Source of the DNA: Acholoe squamosa
Lineage: Eukaryota; Annelida; Polychaeta; Phyllodocida; Polynoidae
NCBI GenBank assembly: GCA_949317995.1
Contig: OX439050.1
Location: 23,447,839 to 23,511,838, forward strand
Length of the DNA: 64,000 nucleotides
Direction: 5' to 3'
The notes beneath the pieces were generated by a model that did not search any database, was not told where the DNA came from, and was given only the letters and a program-made list of their open reading frames with translations. Below, piece after piece: positions 28,840 to 51,734 of the stretch; positions within the stretch are counted from its first letter, which is position 1; each line of letters begins with the position of its first letter. A program made the position numbers and the translations under genes.

Positions 28840-28849
28840 AGTAGTATAT

Positions 28850-28899
28850 ATATAGGTCTTCTTTGGATATTTCTAAAAAAATATCCAAAGAAGACCTAT
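28850..28899. repeat. Subterminal hairpin of the left end
   Basis: A 22-bp stem (tataggtcttctttggatat...) with a 6-bp loop, starting about 10 bp from the tip. The right end has the mirror copy at about 63,487-63,537. A position next to the terminus suggests a role in end recognition or replication start. Confidence 0.8.
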
Positions 28900-29067
28900 A
28901 TTTTTTGAATATCCAGAAAATACCTATTATTTTGGATATTAGGATTATTTTTGGAAATAGTAATCATATCATAAATTTTAAATACAAAAGAGAGGTCAAG
29001 TGGTTCTCATGTCACACGGTTCTTAGCTGAGCTTTCGGTACAGAGGAATGAACTAAGTGCACCAAGG

Positions 29068-29170
29068 ATTGAAGGAGGATTGAAGGATTGAAGGAGGATT
29101 GAAGGATTGAAGGAGGATTGAAGGAGGATTGAAGGATTGAAGGAGGATTGAAGGAGGATTGAAGGAGGAT
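29068..29170. repeat. Minisatellite in the left TIR
   Basis: Units ggattgaa and ggaggattgaa alternate about nine times. The right TIR has only about three units, so copy number changed after insertion or differs between ends. Confidence 0.8.
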
Positions 29171-29692
29171 TGTGGAACACGTTCAATTCCAGATCAGTGC
29201 TCTAAGGAACGGTGAGCGTTACTGAAACAGGAGGACCATTATGTATGGTTGCTTTCACCAACTGATGGGAGCATCACCCGTTCATGCTTCAACCAACAAT
29301 GGGAGCATCACCCGTTCATGCATCATCCGCTCTAAGTGGACAAGGTCGCAAGAATAGTCCAGATCTTTTACGCACTGAAGCTACACCTGGAGCTACAGAC
29401 AAGGAGGTTCGTGACATGAGGGCCGGACCTCTCCAATTAACCCCAGACATTGCGTTCCTTATATACTCCACCTCAGCAGTGAAATCATAAATGTGGTGTT
29501 ACACCTTTAAGTCTATGAACAAATAGACATTCAGTTTAAGAGGATATAGATTTTTTTCATCAGTTTGAGTGATTTAGGGACAGAGTTTTTTCTCCTCTAT
29601 TTTTTGATATGTTTCATTGATATCAGCAAAGAATATTTGCTGAGTTATTAGAGGAATTTACAGCGTTAGTTTACAATTGAAGCGATAGATTT

Positions 29693-30060
29693 ACATTCAA
29701 AACGCGGATTTTTTGTCCCCCTCTACCGAGAATAATATGAACTACATTCAAAACGCGGATTTTTTGTCCCCCTCTACCGAGAATAATATGAACTATCTCT
29801 GGCATGATATATGTAGCGCGCGGATCACCAATCTGCGCAATTCTCAAATAGCGCAGCGTAATTTTCTTGAACAGTTTGAATGATTCATGTATAGAGCTCT
29901 TTCTTTTCATTGTTTGATATATTTTATTGATATCAATAAAGAATACTTGCTCATAGCTTACAATTGAGACGATAGATTTCATCATATTCAGTTCGTAGAA
30001 CGCATTCTTGGGTTTCCCTCTACCGAGAATAATATGAACTATCTTTGTCCTGTTCTAGGT
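29693..30060. repeat. Inner boundary of the left TIR with partial duplicated copies
   Basis: A 49-bp unit containing acgcggattttttgtccccc is present twice in tandem (29,694-29,793). A further degenerate copy of the TIR's inner part plus this unit, with cgagaataatatgaactatc, occupies about 29,870-30,048. No ORF here is credible. Confidence 0.6.
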
Positions 30061-30089
30061 TATGTGGAACTAAATAATTTATGTACATA

Positions 30090-31150
30090 GCTTTTCCCAT
30101 CTTTTTGACACTAATCTGCGTGTCACATGACGAATTTAGGATAAGATCATGTCTCATGTCATTTTTCTCCATGTCCTTGACACTAGGTTCCATGTCACAT
30201 GTTGTTAAATTACTATTATCCCATGTCTTTGACACTGATCTGCGTGTCACACGGCGAATTTAGGATATGATCATGTCTCATGTCACTAGGTTCCATGTCA
30301 CATGTCAAATTACTATTATCCCATGTCATCATGTCTTTGTCACTGATCTGAGTGTCACACGGCGAATTTAGGATATGATCATGTCTCATGTCCTTTTTCT
30401 CCATGTCCTTGACACTAGGTTCCATGTCACATGACAAATTACTATTATCCCATGTCTTTGTCACTGATCTGAGTGTCACATGGCGAATTTAGGATATGAT
30501 CATGTCTCATGTCATTTTTCTCCATGTCCTTGACACTAGGTTCCATGTCACATGTCAAATTACTATTATCCCATGTCTTTGACACTGATCTGAGTGTCAC
30601 ACGGCGAATTTAGGATATGATCATGTCTCATGTCATTTTTCTCCATGTCCTTGACACTAGGTTCCATGTCACATGTCAAATTACTATTATCCCATGTCTT
30701 TGTCACTGATCTGAGTGTCAGTTAGCGAATTTAGGATATGATCATGTCTCATGTCATTTTTCTCCATGACCTTGACACTAGGTTCCATGTCACATGTCAA
30801 ATTACTATTATCCCATGTCTTTGTCACTGATCTGAGTGTCACACGGCGAATTTAGGATATGATCATGTCTCATGTCATTTTTCTCCATGTCCTTGACACT
30901 AGGTTCCATGTCACATGTCAAATTACTATTATCCCATGTCTTTGACACTGATCTGAGTGTCAGTTAGCGAATTTAGGATATGATCATGTCTCATGTCATT
31001 TTTCTCCATGACCTTGACACTAGGTTCCATGTCACATGTCAAATTACTATTATCCCATGTCTTTGTCACTGATCTGAGTGTCACATGGCGAATTTAGGAT
31101 ATGATCATGTCTCATGTCATTTTTCCATGTCCTTGTCATCAGGTTGTATG
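30090..31150. repeat. 121-bp tandem satellite, about nine units
   Basis: The phrase gaatttaggatatgatcatg recurs at 30,256, 30,364, 30,485, 30,606, 30,727, 30,848, 30,969 and 31,090, mostly at exactly 121-bp spacing, with one 108-bp unit. Each unit is built from shorter catgtc/gtcac words. Diverged outlying copies occur at about 33,345-33,380 and 33,553-33,700. Confidence 0.92.
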
Positions 31151-32263
31151 TTGTTAAATTACTGTAGTAAATTTTGTTATAACAAAGTGTGTAATTTTAG
31201 TTATAAAAGAATTTCGTTTTAACCAAATTATACAATATGAGAGCATTAGGGATCAATTAGACACACCCCCCACCTTCCTTACCCTGAGTTTCGTTATGCT
31301 GTAAACTCTCAAATAGTATATAGTCCTGCCACCTGTTGATATAGTAGAGTATTATATACGGCGCTGATGAATATCATTTTATTGATAAATCGAGACTGTT
31401 TGATGACGTTTAATGAAGTATTATGTAGACCTCTTAGGATTTTTTGGGATTATACCAGTAAGTTGGATTGAAGAAGTATAATGCAGATCTCAGGAGAATG
31501 TTTTTGGATTAAATATTGGTCTGGAGAGACCAGACCTTCAAAAATTCCAAATAGAAGATCTACGAACTCTTAAGCTAATGTTAGCCTAGACTTGAGTTAT
31601 ATTAGTATGATCCATGCATGAATTTATTTCTATATGTTCATGTACGAGTGTTATGATTATGGGTGTGCTACATTGATAAATGTTTTGAGAGATGACGTGT
31701 TATAAATAAATATTACCTAATGTTTTATTGGTATAGGCTATAGTTTATTGTATAAAAGATTTATATTGTATCGATATATTTCTTTATATAACATCATATT
31801 TTTATAGGACAGTGGTGTTCTAATACGTAGCTTTATGTAAAAAGAGAATAGTGCTGCCACCTGTTGATTTAGTATCGTATTACGTGGTTATTAACTCTTA
31901 ATGAAGTAAAATGTTGACCTCATAGGATTTTTTTTGATCATATTATAACATCTCACGTATAGTTGAGTTTTGAGATGCGTCTTATACGTAAGGTATTATG
32001 GTAGACTAGCTGAGCTGGTGTTTATTCTCTGTTATAGGAAAAATCTTTTCTTAGGACAAAGCAATATATTTTTCTTCACCCTTTAAATACTGTAAATGGA
32101 TTATTGTATTTCTTGCTGTAGATTATGATATTACATTGATAAAGTCTTATTTATTTTTTATTTCACTTTTTTATTTATTTTTTAAGAGAGAATATTATCA
32201 TAGTATTTTTTTATGTACTGCGTATCATAATTGAAAATAAAACATTTTGTATGAAAATTGAGT

Positions 32264-32506
32264 ATGATGCACTCTTATGTTGGTTACAGACGTGTTTGTC
32301 TCCTATGTGGTAGGAAATCCTTTAAGGTTCGCTTATGTTTTGTACTTGTTGAATGTTACGATACTATCATAATTAATAAAGTGCTAGAGAGAAATTTTAA
32401 TGAAATTTTATCGAAGTTTTTAATTAAACATTTTATGACAGATGGTATGTCAGCTTTTTATTTCTATTTTTGCTATTTATTTTTATTTTCCACTGTTTTC
32501 TTATGA
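32264..32506 (+). CDS. Small ORF with CxxCGRK motif (doubtful)
   Basis: About 80 residues with ATG at 32,264. A VCLLCGRKSF segment and an amphipathic middle look protein-like, but the C terminus is a run of Phe/Tyr typical of AT-rich noise. A gtatgt donor-like site at 32,443 could end a coding exon before that run. No family is recognised; it may be a gene remnant. Confidence 0.2.
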   Translation: MMHSYVGYRRVCLLCGRKSFKVRLCFVLVECYDTIIINKVLERNFNEILSKFLIKHFMTDGMSAFYFYFCYLFLFSTVFL

Positions 32507-33381
32507 ATTGCGCATTAAACACAGTTTTATATTGCTAGTCTTAAAGGGTGAAGACTGGAAGCTTTCCCACCCTTAACCACTTTAGGTCTTATCCTATATA
32601 TATTAAGATAAATGTTATTATTGTAATCATTATCTCAAGATAATTTTCTTAATTCATATATTTTTTATAAGTTTTTTAAAGTTGACGATGCTTGAAGTTA
32701 AAAAAAAGTGATTTTTGAACAGAAAAAAAATTATGAGTCTTGTATTTAGAAGATTAAAGATGGATTTTTCACTATATTACTTCTTATAGAGCTAAAGACC
32801 CAGGGTCAAAATGTCACAACTTTCCCAGAGAATACTGCGTTCAGATAATGTCTTGAGCAAAACAAGGATATTAATCATGTCTTCCAGATAACGTTCTGAA
32901 CAAAACAAGGACATAAATTATGCATCAGTACATACGTACTTAGTTCTTTAGTTTGATTATTCCAATAATTAAAAGATTTTCAATAATAGAGTAATTGTTT
33001 ATTGTTTTCTCATACAGATTTCAATAGAATAGCGTATTGCATAATGAATAGTGTTCTTTTAAAAGCCACACGGAAGGCTAGTATATACCTTATAGCCAAG
33101 ATACATATGTCAGGTTATATAACCGTACATGATGAAATATATGAATTTTGGTTAAGTGATTCATAATTATTAACAAGCGTAGCTATAAAATATGAATGTT
33201 TTCTTGGATAAACAGAATTACTACCTTAATCTCCAGTGTATAAAAGTCAGCGCGTATATAAGAAGCATTTATAATTTTAATGCTGTTTTTTCAGTAAATA
33301 TACCCTTCAACTTGAGGAAATATTATAAGACGCAGTGGTCTTTAACATTTATCTGAGTGTCATATGACGAACTTAGGATTA

Positions 33382-33552
33382 GGGATGTAAGTCAGGCATG
33401 GGCAAAAATCAGGAAGCCATACATTTACTTGATATAAAAGCCATCTATTTTTCCAAAAGTCTCTCTTTACCACTTGTATAAGGAAAGTAGATGGCATTCA
33501 AAATTTTCAGAAATCAGGAAATCCTGATAAATCCTGAAGACTTACATCCCTG
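33382..33552. mobile_element. hAT-like MITE inserted in the provirus
   Basis: Ends gggatgtaagtc / gacttacatccctg are the same family as the host copy at 11,978-12,120. Flanks taggatta and taggataa form an 8-bp target duplication within a diverged copy of the 121-bp satellite unit, showing insertion after that unit existed. Confidence 0.7.
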
Positions 33553-33835
33553 TAGGATAAGATCATGTCTCATGTTATTTTTCCATGTTATATGTCGTTA
33601 AATTACTATTATTTCATGTCTTTGACACTAATCTAAGTGTCATATGACGAATTTAGGATATTATCATGTCTCATGTCATTTTTCCATCTCACATACAGAT
33701 CTCAGGAGAATGTTTTTGGATTAAAGTGAGTATATAAGAAGCACCTATAATCTTTATGCTGTTTTTTCAGTAAATATACCCTTCAACTTGAGGAAACATA
33801 AGACGCAGTAGGGAATGTCTTTAATATGCAAGACA

Positions 33836-36161
33836 TTATGGTATGTTTGAACGTAGAGGTATTAACTCAAAAATTTCTCTGCTTGTGCTAGCTTGGCCTG
33901 AAGTTGGTCTATATATAGGAGATCTGTTTCTTTTTTTTCGAGCCTTTAATATTATGACAATGCTTGTTATCATAAGTAAAGGAATGATTACACCAAATGA
34001 TACAGACACAATAAAAGATGAAGATGCCGTTGAAGAGTTAACAGAATCGTTTGGAAGAGACTCTCTTGTGCTATTCATCAAGGAGGGGCTTGAAGTTGAC
34101 ATTTTCTGATCTGTTACTGTATGTGAGAGGGAAGAGCTGCTCCTTAAGGCGTGGCTTAAAGTCGTCAGTTTGTGCTCTCTTGGTACAGCTGAAAGGGGAG
34201 AGCTGCTCTTCAAGGCGGGGCTTAAGGTTGACAGCTCCTCATGGTTTGGTATATAAGAAGCAGGAGTGTTGGGCTGATCTTCCAGATGAAATCCTTCTCC
34301 AGACAGTGAAGACGTTGTCATAGTATCCTCATATTGATAGTCTCTTTCTTGAGGAGCAGTTGTGGTTTGCTGTTCAGACGTCTTAATCAAGGTAAGTTTT
34401 TCTCTGAAAAGAAAGGTTATATTATTTTAATGTATGTTAGGTAATTTTTGTTAAGATATTTCTGAAAATATAAGGTTATTATGTCTTTTCAAAAACTAGA
34501 ACAGAGTTAAAGAAAATATAACAACGTTTATATGGTTTTGGATTCAGGATTTCTTAAGACATTTTTAAGGTTATAAAGTCTCTTCAGTGACTTAAAAAGA
34601 TATATAGAAAATATTTTGACGTCGTTGGCATTTTCGTACAAGTCGTGGTTTATATAAAACAAATTAAAGTGTTATAATAATTAGTAAAAATATAGAAATA
34701 CCTTGAAGTAGCCTCTTTTTCAATGACAGTAGATGTATAGGCAGCAGGAGTGGAAGCAGGGATATAGATGGTGCGTCTATATATGATCGAAGTAGGGATA
34801 TAGGTACTAGGCTTGAAGGTGGAAGTAGGCTTGTAGACAGTAGGTTTGTAGGTGGTAGTAGACTTATAGATTATAGTAGACAGAGTAGAAGTTTTTGTTG
34901 TGGTTGATTTTGCTTTCATCAGATGATATTCTGTGAGACGGATATATTTTCCTTCTGTTGGAAGGTAGACATGAGTTTTCCTGTTAAAATAGGACGTTAA
35001 CTTTATCAGTGTTATAACAGAATTATTTTTGAAACATTTGACAGTATAGACAATGTGTTATAACAGATTTGAACTACGATCTCTTTTATTGTATCAGATT
35101 TGGCACGGTGCCAGGACACTGCAGGGCTTTTGACAGGATTTTTTGCAATGCGCCAATTGCACACTTTTTAGCAAATACAATGCGCCATTCTGTAAATGAA
35201 TGGTCATTCTAGCCATTTAAATGCGACATTTAGGCATTAAATGCGTGTATTGCGCACTGCGCAGCCCTGTTAAAAGCCCTGGGACAGCGTCGAATTAAAG
35301 ATTCTAGTCTATGATCTCATATTTTCAATAGCACTACTTTTAGCATGGTCTAAAGCTGAATACATATTTATTTTTTTAGCTAGCAGAGAAAAAAATTAGG
35401 AATTTACATGTGAGCACTAATAAGGCCATAGGAACTCAGGTTACAGTTTACTGTCCGAGCCGTTTTGAAATTTGATGAGGCATTTTTTCATTATTCATTA
35501 TATAGGTAGCACTGCCTTGAAATCTTCAGGTTGTATATGCCACCATGTTATTGACATTCCTGGCATTGTAAGCTTTAATTTGATACCAAATATGCCCTCC
35601 TTTGCTCATTCCTACCATGTCTAAATACATTTTTGAAAAATTCTACAATATTTTTTTAGATAATGAATAATGAAATTTTCTCATCCGGCCCTTTAAATGT
35701 ATGCGGGCGGTGGACGGTAAACTATAATATGAGTTCTATTGGCCTAACAGAAAATTGCTCTGAGATTAGTATTTTTGGTTAAGAAATATTATTTTAGAGT
35801 GTAAGAGTAAAAATTTCGACGAATTACTATTCAGTAAAATAGGATAATAAATCCTTTTAAATTACCTGCATGTCCCTGCTTCACAAGAATAGAGAGCAAC
35901 TTTCGAGGAAACTTGCTCTAAGAAAGGGAATCGGTTTCTTCCATACTGTATTTCCTGCGTTTGGTCGTTACTTTGTGTCCTGATTTCTGAAGTGATTAAA
36001 GTTTTGTGTGTCAGTTCCATTTGAATCCAACATGTTAGATTAGGACTCTGGCAGGAAATAATGCTATCCTCTAAGAAAGAGCATGAACAATTTTCTTTTG
36101 TTCCCACTCCTAGACAAGCAGGGACAAGAACGAATATTAGGAAATAAGTCCACATCTTCAC
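33836..36161 (-). CDS. Three-exon mucin-like type I membrane glycoprotein
   Basis: Exons on the minus strand: 36161-35866, 34980-34702 and 34403-33836. Both introns have GT-AG ends and both junctions are phase 2 with agreeing frames, giving about 380 residues. Exon 1 encodes a signal peptide (KMWTYFLIFVLVPACLGVG) and a Cys-containing segment of about 75 residues with NCSC, SCQSPNLTC and SCEAGTC. Exon 2 is Thr/Tyr/Pro/Lys-rich with repeated YKPT/YIPTS units. Exon 3 is Ser/Thr-rich, then has one hydrophobic span (FIVSVSFGVIIPLLMITSIV) and a basic cytoplasmic tail of about 38 residues. The layout is that of a heavily O-glycosylated surface protein. It is the only convincing minus-strand gene of the element. 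It could be a virion or cell-surface glycoprotein or a captured host receptor; no family is recognised. Confidence 0.7.
35122..35281. mobile_element. hAT-like MITE in intron 1 of the glycoprotein gene
   Basis: A 160-bp element with ends cagggcttttgacagg / cctgttaaaagccctg and imperfect 8-bp flanks ggacactg and ggacagcg. The interior is rich in atgcgc words. It sits between exons 1 and 2 and would be removed by splicing. Confidence 0.7.
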
Positions 36162-36851
36162 TGTGAGCTAGATGACGAAGAACTAGAGAATAACCTAGAT
36201 CTTTCTTTAACCTAACTAGTTTAGCTGTAGAAAAAGGTATTAATACGAGTGAATGAGAAAAGACTGACAATGAGCCTTTAACTAAAAGTAGGGTGAGTCA
36301 TAGTCTTCTTAGATAAAATAGATAAGTACCCGTTTCGAGTTTCCATGACTAGATAACAGCGAAGTAGTTCAGCTTGTCGATGGTATGAGAGGATTTCGCT
36401 GAAACTTAGGCATCTTTTAGGTCCTAAAAGAAAATAATCCTTGCTTCTTGACATGATTTTCCGCTTTTGAAGCTGTAAATCCTACGTTAGGTCTTAGAAT
36501 ATTATATTTTGCAGAAGAAGCTTCTGGCGAAATTAACCCGGAAGTTCAAGTTAATCATTTTGGTTCCTGTATGATCTAGTAGTTTTCAAATTTTTTACCT
36601 AGCCGTAAAGTCTCGGACCACCAAAATATTTCTCACTATAATTTATTGTAGCTTAACCACCTTAAAAACCAGCATATAATCATTATAATCGTGCATTATA
36701 ATTATAAATTTTTATTTTCATCTTTTATGTATGAAATATAGGTTTGACCAATTCAGTTTTTTTCTGTTGGTTTGCGTGTGTATCTACCTATATTTCGGTC
36801 TGAACTGTGCCTAATGATTCAATAGTGCTCATAAGTTTTTTAATGTTGCCT

Positions 36852-37158
36852 ATCAGCACTTAACCAAAGGGCTTGTGTGTCATATTTATATTCTATGGAT
36901 CATTATATGGTGGTCCGAGATCAGGAGGGGGACGGACGTTATACCACCTTATAAATATTTCATTTCCCTGAGATTCTCTTCTCGGCTTTCACTAGCTTAT
37001 CAGCGCTTAACCAAAGGGTCTGTGTGTCACATTTATATTCTATGATTGTTTTTTACTGCGGATCACTATATGGTGGTCCGAGATCAGGAGGGGGACGGAC
37101 GTTATACCACCTTATAAATATTTCATTTTCCTGAGATTCTCTTCTCGGCTTTCACTAG
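36852..37158 (+). promoter_or_regulatory. Duplicated segment with TATA box (two copies)
   Basis: Copy 1 (36,852-36,996) and copy 2 (36,999-37,158) share cagcncttaaccaaaggg, a gtggtccgagatcaggaggg core and TATAAATA (36,950-36,957 and 37,113-37,120). The TATA box is followed about 30 bp later by the pyrimidine-rich ctcttctcggctttcact, a plausible start site. It is probably a tandem promoter for rightward transcription. Confidence 0.5.
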
Positions 37159-37679
37159 AGTTTTCATTTGAAATAAATTTTCCTTAAATTCAGATGATTT
37201 CTTTTAAATGTCTTTCAAATTTATGTGCAATTTAACCCTCATCCTTGATAAAGCGGTACTGCCCTTGAACCCTCATCGGGTAGAAAGAAACACATAGCGG
37301 AACCATAAACATTTGATGAGACACGACAGGAGTAGAGGAACCAAAAGTATTTCATTAGACACGGTAGAAACAGAAAGAGACATCTAACGGATTAACTAAG
37401 AAACATAAGGCTAGGTAAATTTTTGTAAGAAGTATTTTGTTTTCGATTGCGGAATATGCGTTCGGAAAATACATTTTTCTCTAGAACTATGGCATATTTT
37501 TGATATACAAAAGTATGGTATTCTTTATGTTTTTCATAGAATAAGACAATAAATCAGAAAGGTCTAGATAGGGCTTAAAAGTATGATTTCTCGGAGAAAA
37601 CACTGCTGCTAAAGATGGTTTTACCTAAAGCGGAAGGTATAGTCAGCCATTTTTTTATAACAGAGTGACGCATGCGTAA

Positions 37680-38340
37680 TGACTTATTGTGTTCGAGGAA
37701 AAAACTAACATACTAAGTAATTTTATGTTTCGCGTTCAAGTGAAAAATAAGGTTATGAGCTGGAAGGTTGTTGCGTTCGAATAGAGATTGAAATAATATC
37801 TTATTGCTTTTGTTGAAGGTGTGTTAGATCATTTAAGTAAAAGCATTCGAGTGGAAATTGCCTGATGCGTTCGAGTGGAAATTGTCTGATGCGTTCGAGT
37901 GAAAACTGTAGTAATAAACTGAACTGATGCGTTCGAGTGAAAACTGTAGTAATAAACTGAACTGATGCGTTCAAGTGAAAACTGTAGCAATAAACTGAAT
38001 ATTGAAATTAGTTGTGTTCGAGTGGATATTTAATAATGAATTAAATTTTTCTTTTCATATAAAAGCAGAACAGGAGAGGAGCATGTAAAACGCTACAGCT
38101 TATAACGAACCTAGGAAAAGGAAAACTGTAAGGTAGGTGATTTATATAGTTAGACCTTTTTTAACTTAACGCTTTCGAGTAAAAACTAAAATGTCAAACT
38201 TCAAATTTTATGCGTTGAAGAAGAAACTATAGTTTCAAGTTTTTTTATGCGTTAGAGTAAAAATAAATTATTTTATAGTGTTCGAGTAAAAACTACAGTC
38301 ACAAACTAAATATAGTTATTTGGTGTGTTTGTGCGAAAAC
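37680..38340. repeat. Field of gcgttcgagtgaaaact repeats
   Basis: At least ten copies of a g(c)gttcgagt(g/a)aaaact word. The best part (37,860-38,000) has three units of about 38 bp carrying gtagtaataaactgaactga. Units outside are diverged and irregularly spaced. Confidence 0.75.
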
Positions 38341-38547
38341 TGTAGTGAAAAACTGAATGCTTTTACTTACTGCTTTTAAAAAATAGACCCTGTTCAATTA
38401 ACGATGTTGATGTTTGAAACGTCAATAAATATCACATCACAATGGCGCTCTTCCTATAAATCAGCCATAGTAAATATACTTAGTAAATGAACTTTAATGA
38501 GCTTAGTTTACTTTAAAGAATTCCTATTTTTTTTGTTTTAGTGTATC

Positions 38548-39384
38548 ATGAGTGGAGGAAACTCTGTGTCTAACTACGAGGAACATAGAGGAGGACAACT
38601 AGCAAGGCAAAATATACAGGCGTGTCAGAGATTATTGACCCGTACGAGATTGATAATTAATTATCTGTTCCGTGATATTTTCTACGTACACAGAGGTAAA
38701 TTTATTAACCTATTCTTTGTTACTAAATAAAAAAGAAAAATACTTTTTTATTTGAATATAAAACCAAGTTCTAATAATAATGTTTTAAGTTTAAGAAGAT
38801 TTAGTTTTAATCTTCTCAATAAAAATTTATTTTTTCAGGTTAATACTTTACTCAATAATTTAAGAATGACCTTGCTGAACTCGAGTTATATATTAAAGAT
38901 TTTATGAAATGTTATTTTTCAGATCAATACTTAATCCAAACTCAATCCGAGAGTGATCTTACTGAACTTGAGTCAGAAAGTTTTACTGTAAAAAGCAAAG
39001 GTAAATTTCTTTTGTTTTGGATTTTAGTCATAGATAAGACGAATTGTTATTTATATTTTACATTAAAATTTAATCTAAATGAGTTTATAATGTAAAATTT
39101 AATCTAAATGAGATTATTATTAAAAGATTATATTGAAAAAACATTATAATTACTATTTATAATGTTTTATAATAACAAGATGAAGATATGAAACTGATTA
39201 AAATAATAACAAGATGAAGATATGAAACTGATTAATTTATATATATCATATTGAAAAAATAACGATAATTAGATGATGACATGAAACTGATTATATATGA
39301 AATGATAAAATGCTGATAATTTAAAGAAATTAAGTGTCTTTTTTCTTTTCAGATAGACGTCTTGTGCTGTCTTCTTATTTTTGA
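38548..39384 (+). CDS. Small three-exon gene of unknown function
   Basis: Exons 38548-38695, 38923-39000 and 39353-39384 join with GT-AG introns, all in phase 1, into a protein of about 85 residues. Each donor is gtaaat and each acceptor follows a long pyrimidine run. The start ATG itself lies 7 bp after an acceptor (gttttag at 38,535-38,541), implying an upstream untranslated exon. Exon 1 encodes a helical, Gln/Arg-rich segment (RQNIQACQRLLTRTRLI), exon 2 an acidic Ser/Glu segment, exon 3 a short tail. A decayed copy of exon 2 with its acceptor lies at about 38,830-38,890. No known family. Confidence 0.55.
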
Positions 39385-39755
39385 TTAAGGACTCAGCAGC
39401 ATCAAGGTCGTTTAGTCTGTGTAACATCAAGGTCGTCTGCAGTTTGCTCTAACATCGAGGTCGTTTACAGTTTACTGTATCAACAAGGTTATTCACAGTT
39501 CATTTAGGACGAGGATCTGCTAGCAACATCAAGATTGCTGATTAAATTTGGATAAGGTTATTATTTTATTTTATTTATTTGCTTACTTGCTTTTATTTAG
39601 TTAGCTTGTATCAGTCATTCAGTTAACGTGCTTCAGTTGTCTTGTTTATTTAGTTATTCAATAAATTATATAGCTGGCTTGCTTCTATTATGGTATAATA
39701 TATCATTCTTTCGGTGTTATCTAATTGGTTTGCATATTTTTTGGTTTTAATTCTT
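39385..39755. other. Spacer with aacatcaaggtcg repeats
   Basis: Contains four to five diverged copies of aacatcaaggtcgtttac(a)gttt at 39,398-39,540, then AT-rich sequence. No ORF. Confidence 0.5.
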
Positions 39756-40409
39756 ATGTCAATTCAGTATTACACTAATAATATTGTTTTAATAGCTAGA
39801 ACGTACCCTTGTGCTAAGTTAGACATAGAGAATTTATATCAGCTGCAGGGGAAAATTTCTAAATATAGAGGTTCTATTGTTATTTTAAAAAAAGATTTTT
39901 CTTTAAAATTTACCAAAAATGGGTGTTGTTATATATTTTTAAGAAATGATTTTAACTTTATTGTAAGCAACATTAAAAAGTTTATTTCCTTTTTTTGTTC
40001 AAACTTTTGGAATCATTTTTCTTTAATAAATTACAATAAAATTAAAGTATCATTATTAAATATCCAAATAAGTGTAGAAATTGACATAAAAAATAACAAT
40101 ATTAAAGTCATAGAATTTCTTTTAAAAATACGATTTCATTTTAAAGACAAATATTCATATAAATTAAAGGAGTCTAACACATATGAATCTGTTTGGGTAA
40201 ATTATGAAGGATTAAAAGATTATAATGTGAACAATGTTTCTGTCATAAGAATTTCAAATAAAGATATTACTTTTACTTTAGGTTATAATTTCAAAGGGAA
40301 TTGTATAACTAAAGATTGTAATATTTTTTTATTTTTATGTTCTGAGATAAAACTTGTGTTAGACGAAATAATAAAGGAAAAGTCAGATAATAAAAATGAA
40401 AGAAATTAA
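39756..40409 (+). CDS. Unknown protein, possibly with TBP-like repeats
   Basis: 217 residues from the ATG at 39,756; the frame is open further upstream without an ATG. The sequence has two similar halves. Each has a strand-rich part containing a short KD-F-like phrase followed by a hydrophobic helix (ILKKDFSLKFTKNGCCYIFL then SNIKKFISFF; RISNKDITFTLGY...FLFLCSEIKLVLDEI). This pattern of sheet followed by long helix, repeated twice, resembles the TATA-binding-protein fold, but no diagnostic residues are certain. The 3' end overlaps the next gene by 14 bp, so the two are probably co-transcribed. Confidence 0.5.
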   Translation: MSIQYYTNNIVLIARTYPCAKLDIENLYQLQGKISKYRGSIVILKKDFSLKFTKNGCCYIFLRNDFNFIVSNIKKFISFFCSNFWNHFSLINYNKIKVSLLNIQISVEIDIKNNNIKVIEFLLKIRFHFKDKYSYKLKESNTYESVWVNYEGLKDYNVNNVSVIRISNKDITFTLGYNFKGNCITKDCNIFLFLCSEIKLVLDEIIKEKSDNKNERN

Positions 40410-41466
40410 ATTGATTTCAGAAATTCTTTTAACAATATTTTTTATTTTAAGTCAAAATAATGAATTTAACAGAGTTTACTGGAATGAAATTAAGCTTAAA
40501 GAGAAACATTGTTTGTATTACATTTTAAAATATATTAAAAGGAAGAAGCAAGAGTCTTTTATATCAAAAGAGAAAATATTTGATCTAATGAAAGATGAGA
40601 CTTGGTTTTTTCTTTTGTCTCTGTTAAAAAAAGAAGAAGCCTACAAAAAAGAGTATGAATTTTGTATAAATCAAGAGAAAGAAAAAATTCTTTTAGACCT
40701 TATTTCTTCTCATAGTGTATTGTTAGAATGTATTTCAGAAGTTTTGAATCTTAATATAACTTTTCACACAAAAAATCAAAGTGTAGATTTTTTTCCTTCT
40801 GAAAATATGAGAAGCAAACCTGTTTCTATTTTTTTTGATTCTGAGAACGAGGAAGTGAAAGAATATGTAGAGACTAAGAAAAGAAAAAAGAATAAAAAAA
40901 TATTACCAGCTTCTGATAATGTTTTCAGTGAAGAGAATTTGTCAGATTCTAGTGAAAATGAGGATAATGATTCGAAATCTTTAGACATAGAAAGAAAAAA
41001 GAGAAAATCTAAATCTGTTAAACCTAAACGAAGCGTTTCTCAAGATACTTCTTCTGATCCTGAATTTAATTTTTTAAAAGAAGATTTAGAATTGTCTGAG
41101 AGCGATTCAGATAGTGAAGAGCAGGGTTTAACGAATAAAAAATTTAAAAAAAATGAAGAAATGAAGCATGAGAAAAAAATAGATATAGATGTAGATGATA
41201 AAGTAAATTCGTTACGAGAGTTTTCACCTTTTGCTAACTTATTTAAAGAACAGCTAGAACAGTGTAGGGCTAACTTAGAATCTTCTATTAAAGTATGTGA
41301 TAGAATATATAAGCATTTAATTGTCTTACAAACTAATATGTTACCTGAAAATATAGAGAAATGTGCCAAATGTCCGCAACATTGTTCTGCAGCTATTCTC
41401 AGGTGTACTAAAGACAGAAGAGGTCCTAAAAATTGTAAACCAAAAAAATTAAAAATAATGAAATAA
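40396..41466 (+). CDS. Unknown nuclear-type protein with acidic/basic centre and C-terminal Cys cluster
   Basis: 356 residues. The first 130 are helical and hydrophobic in pattern and may fold. Residues about 145-265 are low complexity, alternating Lys/Arg-rich stretches (KKRKKNKK; ERKKRKSKS) with acidic Ser-Asp-Ser stretches, typical of nuclear proteins. A helical segment follows, and the last 40 residues hold CAKCPQHCSAAILRC and a basic end. The first codons overlap the preceding ORF. Position among the left-arm genes suggests an early regulatory role; this is inference from location only. Confidence 0.6.
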   Translation: MKEIKLISEILLTIFFILSQNNEFNRVYWNEIKLKEKHCLYYILKYIKRKKQESFISKEKIFDLMKDETWFFLLSLLKKEEAYKKEYEFCINQEKEKILLDLISSHSVLLECISEVLNLNITFHTKNQSVDFFPSENMRSKPVSIFFDSENEEVKEYVETKKRKKNKKILPASDNVFSEENLSDSSENEDNDSKSLDIERKKRKSKSVKPKRSVSQDTSSDPEFNFLKEDLELSESDSDSEEQGLTNKKFKKNEEMKHEKKIDIDVDDKVNSLREFSPFANLFKEQLEQCRANLESSIKVCDRIYKHLIVLQTNMLPENIEKCAKCPQHCSAAILRCTKDRRGPKNCKPKKLKIMK

Positions 41467-41578
41467 ATATTATATAAAAGTTGCTTAGCATAATGTTTGA
41501 GTGACATTTTATTTTTTTATACTTAACTTTTTGACTTAAAATTTTAGTTATGAATTTTATTTTATTTATTACCTACAG

Positions 41579-42535
41579 ATGGAACGTGAAAACCAAGAGC
41601 CAGAACCTATTTTGTCCAAGTTAAACAACCAATTTTTTCAAGGAACAAAATTTGCTAAAAATGTTCATGATGTACAAGAAACATCTTCTCTTCAGAAGCC
41701 TGAAGAGGAAATGCCTCTTCTTGTAAGACCGAGTCGAGCTTATCCTACTAAAAGAATGATATCAAAAGAAGAAGATCTGGAGGTTATGCCTCCATTAGTA
41801 AAGAAAAAAAAACTTTCTGAGCTTTGCAAAAGCGACTATGGTCCAGCTTCTTCAGATTTACTAGACGAAGCTATTCAGATTTCTGGACTTGAGTTGTCAA
41901 AAGATGACTATCAAGTTGTGAATGAAGTTGTCTCCTTAGAAGATAACAATGAACTTCACGTTGACTATGAGGAAATTGGTGGTATTGAAGACAACAATGA
42001 CCACTACAGTCATCGTGAAGTTGAAGTTATTCTCGAAGGGGACAAGGACGAAATCATTGACAGTAACGAAGTTAATGTTGCTGGTGAAGAAGTAGCTGTT
42101 CTCCAAGACAGTGACTTAGTTCCTAGTGAAGTTGTCGTGAAAGACGACAACAACATCACTCTTCCTGATAAAAGTTCAGCCAAAGTTGTCAATGTCACTG
42201 AGCCTTTTTCTGATTCTATACAACAGGCTAATACGAGAGACTACCTTCAACGTTTAATTCTGTCTCGCTTGCCTGTTTCTGTCGTCTTCCCTCAAAAGAA
42301 AGACACAGAGACAGGATCTCTTTTCTTGAAGCTGATGACGAAAGTTCCTACAAAAACAAGAACAAAAATATGTAAAAAAATCACTTGTGAAACATGCACT
42401 GACGAGCTGTTCTTTGGAGGGGGAGTATATTTCACTGCACAGAAAAAGAGCATGATGTCATGCCGTTATTGCTTGAAACTTTTTGGCTCCCCTCTCCTTT
42501 TGATTCAGCATATTTCGTCAACACATTTGGATTAA
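41579..42535 (+). CDS. Acidic protein with C-terminal C2H2 zinc finger
   Basis: 318 residues. Residues about 90-220 are strongly acidic with repeated short Val/Asp/Glu phrases (EVVVKDDNN; EVNVAGEEVAV), like an activation domain. The C terminus has a CETC pair and then a C2H2 finger, CRYCLKLFGSPLLLIQH with a terminal HLD. Codon use is less AT-rich than in neighbouring genes. The ATG directly follows a splice-acceptor-like ttattacctacag, so the mRNA may carry an upstream leader exon. A DNA-binding regulator is the likeliest role. Confidence 0.6.
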   Translation: MERENQEPEPILSKLNNQFFQGTKFAKNVHDVQETSSLQKPEEEMPLLVRPSRAYPTKRMISKEEDLEVMPPLVKKKKLSELCKSDYGPASSDLLDEAIQISGLELSKDDYQVVNEVVSLEDNNELHVDYEEIGGIEDNNDHYSHREVEVILEGDKDEIIDSNEVNVAGEEVAVLQDSDLVPSEVVVKDDNNITLPDKSSAKVVNVTEPFSDSIQQANTRDYLQRLILSRLPVSVVFPQKKDTETGSLFLKLMTKVPTKTRTKICKKITCETCTDELFFGGGVYFTAQKKSMMSCRYCLKLFGSPLLLIQHISSTHLD

Positions 42536-42713
42536 AAAATTCACAAGAAATAAAACATAAGCTTCAAGAAAAGTTACTTTAATGTTTATATGATGTTATA
42601 TTTGAACATGTGTGCAGCCTATATCATAAATATGTAGTATGAAAATGTCATACAAGAATTTCAATGTTTGTTTTATATCTTAAAATAATCCGTCTTGTTT
42701 TTATAGGTTCAAG

Positions 42714-43559
42714 ATGGAAAAGCAACTCTACTTGAACTTTTTTTTACTTTCATTAAGAAGTTTATACTTTAAAAACTATTTCAATTTTTATCGTGAACCT
42801 TTGATGGAAAAATTAAACATTGAAATACCTGCACATTCATTATTATCTGTATCGAAATGTTTTTTATACATTTCCTTCTTAAATATTTCATCAAAAAAAG
42901 CTTGTTATGAACGTTTTAATGAAATCAAAAACATAGAGTCCTTAGCATTTTTTGCTTCTTTTTTTCAGTCAGATTTTTTGTTTAATTATATATATCAAAG
43001 GACTACGAAAAAAATCAAAGAAATAGGGAAAGCATTGAAAGTTTATGTTTATTGCGGAACTATGTTTCATGTAAGCAGTAGAAAATTATTTTGGTTTGCT
43101 TCAGATCTTCTAAAAGTTAATCGTTCTGACATATTAGACGATTTGCTTTGTACAAAACACAGCATATTTGCTTATTGTGATTATCTTTGTTATTCGGATA
43201 ATGAACTACAAAATAAAATAACTGATATGTTACAAGATTTAGACCTTAATGCAGAAATTGTTAAGTTTCGCTGCGGAGGGTGTGGGAAATACCATACTTT
43301 TGATAAAAATAAAAAAATTAAAACATTAAAAGTAACATATATGCTGTGTTGTGCTTGTCCAGTTAATTATAAATGTTACAGTAGTTTTAAGTTTGCTTCA
43401 TACAGTACTCATTATCGGAAAGGTATAGCATGTTATGATTGTGGCATGAAATGGAAAAAAGCAAAGCCAATATGTAGTCCTGAATTTTGTTCATGGCTAA
43501 GAAAAAAATTCAGAAGCTTAAGAAAAAAAACTATAAAAAATGCATTACATTATTATTAA
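42714..43559 (+). CDS. RING-like zinc-binding protein A (paralogue pair)
   Basis: 281 residues. The first 180 are helical with an FFASFFQSDFLFN motif. The C terminus has a treble-clef/RING-like arrangement: CGGCGKYH, a CCACPVNYKC segment and CYDCGMKWKKAKPI. The next ORF has the same architecture (FFSDFFQSSYLLE; CKLC; HCCMQPVHIKCL; CKYCDVKWFEKKPI), so the two arose by duplication. RING-type domains often act as E3 ubiquitin ligases, but the spacing here is not canonical. An acceptor-like gtttttatag lies just upstream of the ATG. Confidence 0.6.
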   Translation: MEKQLYLNFFLLSLRSLYFKNYFNFYREPLMEKLNIEIPAHSLLSVSKCFLYISFLNISSKKACYERFNEIKNIESLAFFASFFQSDFLFNYIYQRTTKKIKEIGKALKVYVYCGTMFHVSSRKLFWFASDLLKVNRSDILDDLLCTKHSIFAYCDYLCYSDNELQNKITDMLQDLDLNAEIVKFRCGGCGKYHTFDKNKKIKTLKVTYMLCCACPVNYKCYSSFKFASYSTHYRKGIACYDCGMKWKKAKPICSPEFCSWLRKKFRSLRKKTIKNALHYY

Positions 43560-43897
43560 AGTTTAAGAAATATAAGGATGTAAAAAAACTACTATGTGAT
43601 AACTTCTAACAGGTATCCTTTATCACATAAGAGTATATAACCTGTAAGTTCGGTGTTTAGTTAGGCACTGTGACATTTCAGGTTAAGAACCTTAAAACAG
43701 AACATTCTGTACCATATTTATCAAACAAGTTTTGATATATAAAGTCTATTGAAGATAATATGCCTTTACCATATTTGTTGTTGGATTGAAATAAAGAGGA
43801 TTTATTGTAAGTTATTGAGTAGATATAATAAAGTGTCAAGTTTTGAGAAGAGATTTCACAGTAAGTTATATCAGAAAAAAAATTGCTGATATAAAAG

Positions 43898-44752
43898 ATG
43901 ATAATGAAAGTTAATGTTGGTTTGCTTTTAAGTCGTGTTTATTACTTAGAAGCTATGTTGACTTTCACTGATGGTAAAATAGATGATTTAATAGATGTCA
44001 GTTTCCCTGTTCAGAATTATATGAGTGTAAGAGAAGCTAAACATATATTTACAGCGCTTTCTTTGATTCAGCCATTTTCATCTTTAAAAGAAATAAGAGT
44101 AGAAGCTTTATGCTTTTTCTCTGATTTCTTTCAGTCTTCATATCTTTTAGAAGAAATAATGAAGATTGTTTTATCTGATGTCATGTTATTGCCTAGAATT
44201 ATTAAAATGTGCTGTATTTTTTTAAAATATACAGATTTTTATTATAGAATAAAGGATTTTTCATGTTTTATTTTAGAAATTTCATATTTTGAAGATGTAA
44301 TAGAATTGATGAAACCTGCTCACAAAAGACATTACTTGAATGTTAATCCTAATGATTATGTTTTAAGTCCTTTAAAGAAAAAAATAAGAGATCAAATAAG
44401 AAAAAAAGAACATAAAATGTCTATTCTTTATATGTTTTGTAAACTTTGTTCTTCAGAGCTGATAATTTCTTCTAACAGCACAAATGTTACTTACATTCAT
44501 TGTTGTATGCAACCTGTTCATATAAAATGTTTAAAATTTTTCTTTATGAAAACGAATCATAAAATAAAAAAGTGTAAATATTGTGATGTTAAATGGTTTG
44601 AAAAGAAGCCAATATATAGGTATGAAAAAGATATATTATTATGGTTATCAAAAAAATCAGAATCATGCTCTTCTTTGAAGAAAGACAAGTTACCTAAAAT
44701 GGCTTTACTTGAAAATAAAAATGTTGAAAAATATAACAGTGTTATGTTATGA
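43898..44752 (+). CDS. RING-like zinc-binding protein B (paralogue pair)
   Basis: 284 residues, paralogous to the protein at 42,714. It shares the helical N-terminal part with FFSDFFQS and the C-terminal zinc site CKLC...HCC..PVHIKC...CKYC, closer to a RING/PHD pattern than its partner because of the His residues. It ends in a Lys/Ser-rich tail. The 340-bp gap before it carries no ORF. Possible roles are ubiquitin ligation or transcription control; not determined. Confidence 0.6.
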   Translation: MIMKVNVGLLLSRVYYLEAMLTFTDGKIDDLIDVSFPVQNYMSVREAKHIFTALSLIQPFSSLKEIRVEALCFFSDFFQSSYLLEEIMKIVLSDVMLLPRIIKMCCIFLKYTDFYYRIKDFSCFILEISYFEDVIELMKPAHKRHYLNVNPNDYVLSPLKKKIRDQIRKKEHKMSILYMFCKLCSSELIISSNSTNVTYIHCCMQPVHIKCLKFFFMKTNHKIKKCKYCDVKWFEKKPIYRYEKDILLWLSKKSESCSSLKKDKLPKMALLENKNVEKYNSVML

Positions 44753-44852
44753 TGTTATATAATGTTTTCAATTATGAAATTAATAAATATTTTTCAAGTT
44801 TAATTTCTTTGAGATAATCAAAAAAGTATATATCATATAAGTAAAAAAAGAA

Positions 44853-45782
44853 ATGTCAATTTCCTCTCCTTTTTACGTGAATTTACCCTCTAATACTATT
44901 CACCCTTCTAGGGAAAACAAAACAAGTTCTTATTATGTTAATTTACCTTCAACTATTACATTGAAAGGGGAATGGGAGGTTGGAGTGGTGGAAGTTAATA
45001 TACCTATTTCTTGGTATAATTTTCCTGAAAGACCAGAACGAAATAGAACTATAATAGTGGAAAGAAATTTTTTTAAATTTAAAAAAAATGTGTTCATAGC
45101 AAATTCTGCAAGTGATGTTACCTTGGAGAAAAGGTTTATAGTAGAAAGAATTCCTTATGGAAATTATAATTCTATTAATAACCTTATTGGAACTATAAAT
45201 TCTGTTTTAGAAAAAATTGATATTTATCCTGAGGATGTTTTCTTTAAAAAAGAGCGAAAACCTTTTATGAAAATAGAACCACAAAATTTAAAACCTATTC
45301 TTAAAGTAGGAAAAGGAGACGTAGTAACTTTTTCTTCTGATTTGTCTTCTTTGTTAAGATTAGATTTACATGAAAAAGCTGAGAAAAAAGAAGGAAATAC
45401 TGTGTCTTTCATGGGACCTCCTTTAGAAAATTTTGAAGAATATAAAAAAATAGCATCAAATTTAGGACCAAATGAATATGAAAATTTCATAGCGGGTGGG
45501 GTTCCTAATTTGCATTACATAGCATCTAATATTTATATTTATAGCAACATAGTTTGTAATGAAGTAGTAGGAAACAAACAAGTTCCACTTTTAAGAACAA
45601 TAAGATGCACAGGAAGCTTTGGTGATGACATAACAGAAGTTTTTGTTACTCCATATTACAAAAAACTTAAAAGAAATGAAATACAAGAAATTCAAATAAC
45701 TGTCTGTGATGACTTAGGAGATCTTGTTAAATTTGAATACGGAACAGTGTTTTTGGTTTTACATTTCAGACCGATAGTCTAA
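44853..45782 (+). CDS. Probable minor virion protein (penton/fibre-type candidate)
   Basis: 309 residues, mostly predicted beta strand. The opening motif FYVNLPS...YYVNLPSTITLKGEWEVGVV followed by EVNIPISWYNF is a conserved feature of a Polinton structural gene that usually lies close to PolB. The C terminus ends in a strand FLVLHFRPIV. The stop codon overlaps the PolB start (TAATG). Assignment to penton rather than another virion surface component is inference; a jelly-roll fold prediction would decide. Confidence 0.55.
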   Translation: MSISSPFYVNLPSNTIHPSRENKTSSYYVNLPSTITLKGEWEVGVVEVNIPISWYNFPERPERNRTIIVERNFFKFKKNVFIANSASDVTLEKRFIVERIPYGNYNSINNLIGTINSVLEKIDIYPEDVFFKKERKPFMKIEPQNLKPILKVGKGDVVTFSSDLSSLLRLDLHEKAEKKEGNTVSFMGPPLENFEEYKKIASNLGPNEYENFIAGGVPNLHYIASNIYIYSNIVCNEVVGNKQVPLLRTIRCTGSFGDDITEVFVTPYYKKLKRNEIQEIQITVCDDLGDLVKFEYGTVFLVLHFRPIV

Positions 45783-48700
45783 TGATTTATCGTCGTAGAG
45801 CATTAAAAAATCTTATCACAGAATATGATATCATTCCTAATTCTTTAAAATATGATCCTGATTTATTTTTGTTCAAAAATTTAAAAAAAGTGAAGAAAAA
45901 AATATTAAAAGTAAAGAAAGAAGAAGGTGGAGTTAAATTTCAGATAGGACTTTGCGTTATTTTAGGAAAATATAACTTAGAAACTAATGAATATTTTCAA
46001 ATAGAACCATGGTTTTTAAGTCCAGTTCAATTTGGGTTTGATTCTTTGAATTTAGAAGAAACAATTAGGTCTAGTTTTTCTATTATATTAGGATTTTTTG
46101 ATTCTTTCCTTCACATGGGATCAGGATGGTTTCTTAAAAAAATCAAAGTTCTTAGAATTTCAATTTTTAAATATAACCCTTTAGGAGGAAAAGAAAGACA
46201 AAAGACTAAAGACTTAATAGACAAAAAAAAATCAATTTTAAATATAAAAGGAACTGGTAATAAATGCTTTCTTTATTCTGTTTTAGCTGGTCTACATAAA
46301 GTAACAAATAATTCAAATTTAGCAAAATCTTATGATATTTTTTTAAATGAATTGAATCTTTCTTTTATTACTTTTCCTGTGAAATTAAATGAAATATCAC
46401 AATTTGAAAAAAAGAACAATCTAACAATAAATGTATTTGGTATGTTAGAAACAGAGCAAAAGATTATTCAACCTTTCCCTATGTATATTTCTACTAATTC
46501 GACTACTGTTTCTGAAGGAAGACATGTTGATTTATTATTATATGATGATCACTACTATTTGATTAGGAATTTACATAAGTTTATAAGACCTTTTTTCTGG
46601 AAAAAAACTAGATATTTTTGTTACAAATGCTTGATATCTTTTTGCTCAGAAAAAAAATATAAGTCCCACATAACTCAGAATTGCAATAAAAATCCTTACG
46701 TAGGACAAGGATACTATATGCCACCTATAGGTTCACATCTTAATTTTTCAGATTTCAAAAATAAAGTAAAAAGTCCTTTTATCATTTATGCAGATTTTGA
46801 ATGTTATAATTATAAAATGAAAGAACCAATTTATAAAGGTAAATCTTTATGTGAACGCGAACATAAATTAAATGCTTTCGGTGCTATAATGGTGTCAAAA
46901 TATAAAGAATACAATCAAGATCCATTCATATATGTAGGAAAAAATGTCATATCAAATTTTGTCTCTTATTTATATCAAAAAAGAGCTGAAATATCTTATA
47001 TTTTACACCATAAAAGAGAACCTATGAAATTAACTCCTCAAGATATTTCTCATATAGCTAAGCAGAGAAAATGTTACGTTTGTGGGGTTTCATTGACTCG
47101 TAAAGGTATACGTAAAGTTTTAGATCATTCTCATATAGGGCGAGAAGGTAAAGGGAGAGACATAAATTATGCTTGTAACAGATGTAATCTTACTTATACG
47201 TCTTTAAGGATGGATAAATTAAAAATACCTATTGTTATTCATAATAGCATGAACTATGACACTCATTTTCTTATTCAAAAATTATATAAATATGTGGACG
47301 AGAAAAATATATCTGTTATAGCAAAATCGTCAGAAAAATTTTTGACTTTAAGTTTTGAAAATTTTCGTTTCATAGATTCTTTTCAATTTCTTCCTACTTC
47401 TTTAGCTAAATTAGCAAATCTTATGAATGAAAAAGGAACTGATGACTTCTATGAAACAAAGAAGCATTTAAAAGATAAAAAATTATTACCTTATGTTATC
47501 CGTAAAGGAGTTATGTGTTATGATTATATAAATTCATGGAGTGTTTTGAAAGAAAAAAAATTGCCTGCAAGAAAATATTTTTATTCTTCTTTAACAAAAG
47601 AAAACATTTCTGACGAAGATTACCAGCATGCTCTTTTTATGTTCAAAGCTTTCAAATGCAAGAACCTAAAAGATTATTTGAAAGAATATTTAAAAATAGA
47701 CGTTTTGCTTTTATGTGACGTTTTCGAATCTTTTAGAGAAAAGGCTTTAGATTATTATGGATTAGATCCATCACATTTTCTTACTTCACCAAGCTTAAGT
47801 TATCAAGCCATGTTGAAATATACTGGGGTTAAATTAGATTTATTTTCGGACATAGAAATGTACAATTTCATAGAAACAGGTGTAAGAGGAGGGATAACTA
47901 ATGTTTCGCACAGGTATGCCATAGCAGAAGAGCCTGATGAACATATTTTTTATATTGATTGCAATAATTTATATGGAAAATGTTTAGCAGATTTTTTACC
48001 TATTTCTGATTTCAAATGGTTAGAAAAAAAAGAAATAAATAAATTAGAAATATGTAACATTCCAGACGATAATGAAACAGGCTATATTATGGAAGTAACT
48101 CTATCTTATCCTGCAAACCTTCATGATAGACATAATTCTTTTCCTTTAGCACCAGAAAAATTAGAAATAAAAAAGGAAGATTTATCCACTTATGCTGAAC
48201 AAGTACTCAAAGACATAGGAATTTCATATAAAAAAGGAGGAAAAAAATTAATATGTAATTTAAATCAAAAGGAAAATTATGTTATACATTACCGTAACTT
48301 AAAGCTATATCTAAACCTAGGAATGAAAATTAAAAAAATACATAGAGTTCTTTCATTTAAACAAAAAGATTGGATGAAACCATACATCGATTTTAATACA
48401 ACAAAAAGAACCTTAGCTACTTCTTCTTTTGACAAAGAATTTTTTAAACTTTTAATTAACAGCACTTTTGGGAAAACGTTAGAAAATGTTAAGAAAAGAT
48501 CAACTATGAAATTAACTTCTAATCCTTTAGTAAGTGAAAAACTTATAAGAAAACCAAATTTTAAATCACTACATATCTTTCAAAAAGACTTCGTAGGTAT
48601 ACAATATAACAAAGAACGAATTCTTTTAAATAAACCTATATACATAGGATTTACAGTATTAGAACTATCAAAATTATGGATGTTTAATTTTCATTATAAT

Positions 48701-49285: not shown

Positions 49286-49352
49286 GATAGCTTGAAAAAA
49301 CTTTAACCTTATTAACATTAGAAAGAAAGCCTAAGGCATAATAAAAGAAAAA

Positions 49353-49670
49353 ATGAACAAATCAGGAAAATACCCTACTTTGGCTTTTGGTCGGAGGAAA
49401 AGAATAGATATAAATAAATTTAAAGGAAATATATATTTACATTTTCATGACTTGACTAAAGATAAAAGTATATCTCTTCAAAAAGAAGAGTTTGACCTTC
49501 TTCTTCGAATGAAAAATAAAATATATAAAAAAATTGAAAAAGTTAAGAAATTGAAGAAAGAAAACAAGCAAGAAAAAATAAAAAAAAAGAAAGAAAAAGA
49601 ACAAAATTTAAGTAGTGATAGCAACAGTGAAAGTGAAATGGAATTAAGTGAAAATGATAGCAGTGAATAA
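49353..49670 (+). CDS. PC4-like (p15) single-stranded DNA-binding / transcription cofactor
   Basis: 105 residues. Residues about 12-58 match the PC4 core: a GRRKRIDINKFKGNIYLHF strand pair, then DLTKDKSISLQKEEFDLLL leading into the helix. PC4-family proteins bind melted DNA and support transcription or replication. The rest is a Lys-rich coiled stretch and an acidic Ser/Asp/Glu tail, the reverse of the human order where the acidic part is N-terminal. Position right after PolB suggests a role in replication or late transcription. Confidence 0.65.
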   Translation: MNKSGKYPTLAFGRRKRIDINKFKGNIYLHFHDLTKDKSISLQKEEFDLLLRMKNKIYKKIEKVKKLKKENKQEKIKKKKEKEQNLSSDSNSESEMELSENDSSE

Positions 49671-51724: not shown

Positions 51725-51734
51725 AAAAAAAAAA

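Follow-up and report, generated by a model that had tools for sequence, protein, structure and literature searches.

A predicted, spliced mucin-like glycoprotein gene on a module exchanged among Polinton-type elements of the annelid Acholoe squamosa

Why should a Polinton-type element carry, on the strand opposite its other recognised genes, a spliced gene that looks like one for a surface glycoprotein, and whom would such a protein serve, the element or its host? The question is raised by a window of 64,000 nucleotides (the whole stretch of DNA analysed here, G000:C16:23447839-23511838) of Acholoe squamosa, whose genome (1.48 Gb, 63 contigs) was searched for copies. Read by eye, the mitochondrial contig (15,641 bp) has the gene order nad3-nad2-cox1-cox2-atp8-cox3 and an invertebrate-type code; this order is typical of annelids and speaks for an annelid host and against a mollusc. 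The element ends in inverted terminal repeats with a 6-bp target duplication (AATATT; Table 1), and its sequence places it in the Polinton/Maverick class on account of these ends and of its integrase, type B DNA polymerase (PolB), packaging ATPase and protease genes. We report here that the glycoprotein gene is genuine and sits on a module that recombines among near-identical elements, and we propose, with about even confidence, that it encodes a host-facing surface protein.

The gene lies on the minus strand and consists of three exons separated by GT-AG introns, both in phase 2, as the first-pass annotation of this DNA had read from the window sequence; the strand is also, as claimed there, opposite to that of the other recognised genes of the element. 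The exons within the span first given, 33836..36161, stand, and its start has to be corrected, the ATG lying at 36155 and position 36161 two codons upstream. A hydropathy analysis detected a hydrophobic segment at the N-terminal end of exon 1 and a single strong span within exon 3, and Ser, Thr and Pro make up 42% of exon 2 and 38% of exon 3. Exon 1 encodes seven cysteines, one of them inside the signal-like segment; the other six, in the head, are invariant in 17/17 aligned exon-1 forms, and the invariant residues of exon 3 are mostly found in the basic tail. Hydropathy and composition thus support the predicted signal peptide, Cys-rich head, stalks, single membrane span and basic tail of the earlier description, and give the product the make-up of a mucin-like type I membrane protein; from the same sequence we infer its disulphides, glycosylation, localisation and expression. 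The exons have a guanine-plus-cytosine (GC) content of 39-41%, compared with 27.6% in the core of the element and 37.9% in the flanking DNA.

Copies of the gene are numerous. Our genome searches scored the best candidates only, so that match counts are lower bounds: exon 3 has at least 152 matches, with identities from 100% down to 35%, and 10 of 150 among the matches listed contain a stop, while the head of a divergent copy, used as query, has at least 150 matches, three with a stop. Splice sites were compared in the window and 20 loci (L021-L040) chosen across the identity range. Exon 1 was recovered in 19 of these 21 sequences, always followed by a GT at the same codon phase. Exon 2 was recovered in 20; an AG immediately precedes it in each of them, and a single in-phase AGGTR donor follows, the stalk up to this donor measuring 71-159 codons. 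Exon 3 was recovered in all 21, one or more in-phase AGs being present each time. In some copies exon 3 is shortened or damaged, the exon 2 frame is shifted in L040 and no exon 1 was recovered in L035 and L034.

Conservation is centred on the exons. When the left arm of the window was compared with 16 loci (E-value 1e-10; for the most part the loci take in the gene and a few flanking kilobases), matches were found in exon 1 and as much as about 190 bp of the DNA preceding it, in a part of intron 1, at the beginning of exon 2 and in exon 3. The presumed promoter and 5' untranslated region (UTR) is conserved together with exon 1 in L022, L025, L027, L030, L031 and L032. Introns are mostly unalignable between the window and divergent forms; closer forms share intron sequence. 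Intron 1 has no match among the 16 loci outside 35421-35752, a region that by eye resembles a short inverted-repeat transposon. Outside the gene, the comparison found one 727-bp match to L052 (32406-33129, 82% identity), short matches to L027 at 30190-31119 and 38271-38366, and a match of the core to L059 from 38536 onward; L036, L050, L051 and L054 have no match to the left arm at this threshold. The frame, for which a lack of conservation in related elements had been named as the telling counter-evidence, is conserved in divergent copies. Conserved splice sites and phase, exon-centred conservation and purifying selection together confirm, at the level of sequence, that this is a genuine gene and not a set of chance open reading frames (ORFs).

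Selection acts differently on the parts of the protein. The ratio of nonsynonymous to synonymous divergence (dN/dS) of the head is 0.11-0.28 in the 11, out of 13, divergent pairs whose dS is finite. Exon 1 is depleted of nonsynonymous differences in all eight pairs tested (one-sided Fisher p between 1.4e-4 and 1.2e-10), and exon 3 is so at p<0.05 in 5/7 pairs, the window giving 0.052 with L027 and 0.074 with L052. Measured against the window, exon 1 has a dN/dS of 0.15-0.31 in copies with dS above 0.35, and exon 2 of 0.46-0.78 in those divergent copies whose dS is finite; the exon-1 values of close copies are noisy (0.29-1.17). The low values for exon 1 against the higher ones for exon 2 indicate purifying selection on the head and a stalk almost free of it.

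Evidence for exchange comes from elements whose cores are almost the same. The integrase of an element on contig C10 (loci L052, L059 and L060) is identical to that of the window (969/969 nucleotides), and the comparison of the two elements covered six genes, this integrase and the five ORFs at 39714-44752, with 99.6-100% identity. They are 98.3% identical over 38,524-44,920; left of about 38.4 kb identity drops to 47-60% (in forced-alignment bins), returning to 82% at 32406-33129. Their mature heads are 53% identical, with a dS of about 1.7 and a dN/dS of 0.20. Nine other exon-1 places score exactly as that of the C10 element (by score only); for all ten, an integrase of 99-100% identity is found at a distance of 15.8-34.6 kb, two of the places sharing the same one.

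The same pattern is found in a second core subfamily, whose PolB and 309-aa ORF have about 94% identity to those of the window, the five ORFs having 71-81% where they are alignable. At least 14 members of this subfamily have a 309-aa ORF that is 100% identical in protein, and 13 of their 14 glycoproteins were compared (the C18 copy was left out); they represent nine forms or more, and the eight forms that entered the matrix are 31-86% identical to one another in exon 3. For L036, L033 and L028, dS in PolB is at most 0.002 between elements, and the corresponding head values are 0.98, 1.42 and saturated. The cores on C14 and C11 are 99.9% identical over 6,000 bp; further left the longest matches have 96.8-100% identity, then 82% over 721 bp, and the two glycoprotein loci share one 43-nucleotide match among the matches listed. 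Exchange also occurs within the gene: L022 and L031 are 99.3% identical over 2,270 bp of upstream DNA and almost all of exon 1, and 74-79% identical in exons 2 and 3, which is, from the alignment, one head combined with two different sets of stalk and tail. Since both introns are in phase 2, such exon exchanges keep the frame. These comparisons show that the gene sits on a module recombining among near-identical elements, and that the head can move separately from the stalk and tail. We also observed a tandem arrangement at L055 (G000:C8:59596100-59602400), with an L052-related exon 1 followed by exon-3 pieces of two forms, possibly an intermediate of exon exchange.

Searches for relatives placed the protein in no known family. 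Profiles of exons 1 and 3 had no accepted relative among 5.8 billion proteins, nor had the exon-1 profile in IMG/VR, such exon-sized queries being liable to miss full-length spliced proteins; Pfam and PDB sequence searches of the exons gave no accepted known family and no fusogen. At E<=10, the Pfam matches found with 17 exon-1 forms included no adenovirus family, and PF05393 (E3A) was matched by exon-3 pieces of 6/13 forms (best E 0.03, that of the window below the cut-off). Several candidates were rejected: LRRNT for the head (8/17 forms, window E 0.011-0.015, below cut-off), an exonuclease (7/17 forms, best E 0.0025), and an immunoglobulin-like fold, a by-eye idea supported by no tool. The exon-3 matches to ECSCR (one form, E 8.9e-5), RIFIN (five forms, best E 5.6e-4) and Stevor (three forms, best E 5.9e-4) were taken as membrane or composition matches. 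Host mucin-like receptors, named earlier as a target for a protein search, yielded weak exon-3 matches only and no accepted relative: hidden Markov models of sialomucin-type receptors (endomucin, ECSCR, TMEM154) gave scattered matches, in 1-3 of 13 members each. The protein shares with these receptors a mucin-like type I architecture; unlike them it has no homologous head, and the matches look compositional. A literature search, covering mainly open-access articles and the beginnings of abstracts, found no description of this gene.

What could such a protein do? We favour, at roughly even probability and by analogy, a selected, element-carried gene for a host-facing surface protein that is diversified by recombination and works like adenoviral E3 CR1. 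A promoter of its own would drive its expression in the host nucleus, and the transcript would then be spliced, to yield a type I protein with a cysteine-bonded head on an O-glycosylated stalk. Recombination moves the left-arm module between elements, as the sequences show, and near-identical replication and packaging cores thereby carry different surface proteins. On the host cell surface, the constrained head would bind a ligand of the host or of a competing virus and the conserved cytoplasmic tail would control sorting or signalling. The effect, similar to that of the E3 CR1 proteins in adenoviruses, would be immune modulation, interference with receptors or the exclusion of superinfection; diversity would be kept because each variant of the host or of a rival would favour other heads and stalks.

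CR1 proteins are membrane glycoproteins. In human adenovirus D, according to the available text of PMC6141750, E3 CR1-alpha, CR1-beta and CR1-gamma are hypervariable and recombinant on a genome conserved at more than 90%, and belong to the immune-evasion E3 unit with its spliced messages. The likeness lies in a hypervariable, recombining surface-type gene on a conserved genome. The differences are that no sequence similarity was found, that the Polinton gene is on the strand opposite the core and near a terminal repeat, and that it has introns inside the coding region and belongs to an integrated element. E3 CR1 of human adenovirus D would be the nearest functional parallel, by analogy and with no membership by sequence.

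The alternative that survives best, although we consider it unlikely, is a virion surface (envelope or attachment) glycoprotein with which the element would leave the cell in a membrane, the swapped forms being serotype- or tropism-like variants; what probability it keeps counts against the host-facing proposal. The type I architecture, the stalk and the conserved basic tail, through which a capsid might be contacted, would suit such a role, and there are precedents. Nematode Mavericks are reported to carry a putative fusogen, described as structurally similar to viral fusogens (Widen and colleagues; PMC10680173, available text), and candidate envelope glycoproteins are mentioned for an adintovirus in the available part of PMC11071296. 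The nematode fusogen is, like the gene described here, a membrane gene beyond the usual Maverick/Polinton set, whereas the protein of the window is a small head on a mucin-like stalk; this case also qualifies the initial statement that surface glycoproteins are foreign to the standard Polinton set. The largest ORF without assignment has 356 amino acids, hence no obvious large unspliced fusogen is present, and none of the listed ORFs of at least 100 amino acids is fusogen-like, with the reservation that a spliced one would be missed. The recognised ATPase and protease are those of non-enveloped adenovirus or Polinton relatives, and the gene forms a separate unit on the opposite strand, away from the packaging genes and with a host-like exon GC content. 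For these three reasons we favour the host-facing protein over the virion envelope.

A second alternative, which we judge improbable, is that a host gene travels as cargo or was recently captured, its selection reflecting a host function and not one of the element. The introns and the GC content of the exons, nearer to that of the flanking DNA than to that of the core, would fit a host origin. The linkage to elements argues otherwise. The integrase search scored 124 of 12,723 candidates, all with 97-100% identity, and for 103 of these 124 the opposite strand holds a glycoprotein match placed as in the window (pairing limit 45 kb; 60 kb for 13 extra exon-1 rows); almost all genome matches are on contigs C1-C18. 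The median distance from integrase to exon 3 is 17.4 kb over the 94 of 144 exon-3 matches that pair. The other 50, on which this alternative can draw, have no scored integrase within 45 kb, but at least 14 of them are near a core ORF. Matching by hand showed that each of the 14 second-subfamily cores is accompanied, at a distance of 13-31 kb, by a glycoprotein on the side and strand expected. In addition, the element-borne forms are deeply diverged under purifying selection, and no host homolog outside elements was identified, the surroundings (7 kb) of L035 alone having been read among the loci without a core. A later insertion of host DNA into a single element was rejected, most scored integrases having a copy on the same side.

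Several observations weigh against an element gene with a host-facing role. Nine of the 24 glycoprotein loci L021-L040 and L052-L055 have no scored integrase or core ORF nearby, which would also suit the cargo alternative, and the one of the nine that was read further, L035, has no core match in 7 kb. The gene is not universal, 21/124 integrases having no glycoprotein match in range. Thirteen of these 21 adjoin a core ORF with a 321-aa open frame, which occurs in 15/128 listed cores, and none of those 15, matched by hand, has a glycoprotein match nearby; in three of the 21, the expected place (5.5-6 kb) gave no match at E 0.1. Thus there seems to be a lineage of 321-aa-frame elements without the gene, or with something unrecognisable in its place: L056 (G000:C13:54967000-54972500) and L057 (G000:C12:32431000-32436500), with 100% identical integrase and the 321-aa frame, have no recognisable glycoprotein at the expected place. 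The head shows purifying and not positive selection, atypical for an arms race, pairwise dN/dS being blind to positive selection at single sites. Its structure prediction, made on exon 1 alone, gave no usable fold (predicted local distance difference test score, pLDDT, 48.6). The glycoprotein has no sequence link to E3 CR1 or any other family, and its splicing and function are predicted from the DNA sequence. That chance alone produced the exon pattern in a non-coding left arm, as the composition-biased stalk and the by-eye calling of exon boundaries might suggest, is practically refuted by the conserved splice sites and phase, the exon-centred conservation and a dN/dS well below 1, at some 150 places.

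With animal Polintons and adintoviruses, as described in the available text of PMC11071296 and PMC8097293, the element shares PolB, rve integrase, packaging ATPase and adenovirus-type protease; that text mentions no spliced, opposite-strand, swappable glycoprotein, and the word 'glycoprotein' is absent from the main text of PMC8097293 as available. The available part of PMC11071296 defines adintoviruses by an integrase with a C-terminal chromodomain, a PolB with an N-terminal OTU-like domain and a BLASTp-recognisable Hexon. The rve domain is the sole Pfam match of the 323-aa integrase ORF at E<=0.01; an OTU-like character of the polymerase N-terminus was judged by eye only. The polymerase ORF has no direct Pfam polymerase match at E 0.01, and its homologs, several annotated as PF03175, have at most 67% identity over residues 600-1100. 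The capsid candidate has no convincing PDB sequence match and no match in phage records or IMG/VR. The element is not filed here as an adintovirus.

Table 1. Features of the window (positions in the 64,000-nucleotide stretch)
Feature	Position	Strand	Evidence or remark
Polinton-type element, 34,707 bp	28840..63546	.	Inverted terminal repeats and AATATT on both outer sides
Left arm with swapped module	29700..38523	.	Bounded on the right at about 38,524 in the comparison with the C10 element
Exon 3: Ser/Thr stalk containing degenerate repeats, then membrane span, basic tail (conserved) and stop	33836..34403	-	
Intron 2	34404..34701	-	
Exon 2: about 20 conserved codons, then Thr/Tyr/Pro stalk of variable length	34702..34980	-	
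Intron 1	34981..35865	-	Parts of 35421-35752 match L030, L032, L033, L053
Exon 1: signal-like peptide and six-cysteine head, then GT donor	35866..36155	-	Sequence, alignment
Presumed promoter/5' UTR (function inferred)	36156..36347	-	With exon 1, 81-85% identical in six loci
Five ORFs	39714..44752	+	Window and C10 element 99.6-100% identical in DNA
309-aa core ORF	44853..45782	+	93.5-93.9% identical to second core subfamily
Type B DNA polymerase, 1167 aa	45782..49285	+	Homologs, motifs by eye
rve integrase	50753..51724	+	PF00665, 47.6 bits (cut-off 32.6)
A32-like packaging ATPase	51711..52397	+	PF04665, 27.2 bits (cut-off 22.8)
Possible double-jelly-roll capsid protein (tentative)	54601..55968	+	PF21738, E 0.0087, below cut-off
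Adenovirus-type cysteine protease	55965..56513	+	PF00770, 24.0 bits (cut-off 21.3)

Other ORFs of the window were noted in passing. A 206-aa ORF (58492-59112, plus strand) matches the Death domain PF00531 with 60.8 bits and also a bacterial death-like domain, and could possibly be an element-borne modulator of apoptosis or innate signalling. The element has two separate dUTPase ORFs (59914-60594 and 62221-62691) and one with DUF5662 (57464-58105; 82.1 bits, cut-off 27). Two Cys-rich ORFs, 42714-43559 and 43898-44752, are apparently related to each other and differ among core subfamilies; both match one stretch of L043 and of L057, at 27% and 61-67%. A 971-aa ORF at 215-3130, in a stretch of 56-63% GC unlike the rest of the window, has no Pfam match at E 1. 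An Rfam search gave no match.

Whether animal Polintons are infectious viruses or only transposons is a long-standing question. We put at about an even chance that this single genome holds a serotype-like system, in which diverged surface forms (head dS above 1) with swappable stalks and tails are shuffled onto a few near-clonal cores, so that a host-facing protein is diversified combinatorially. A selected surface-type gene swapped between near-identical elements is hard to explain without repeated encounters and selection outside the genome, and the many near-identical cores, as counted by their integrases, make this host a suitable one in which to seek expression and particles. If true, serotype-like shuffling would count as direct evidence of encounters and recombination between these elements and of their selection at the cell surface, as in exogenous viruses.
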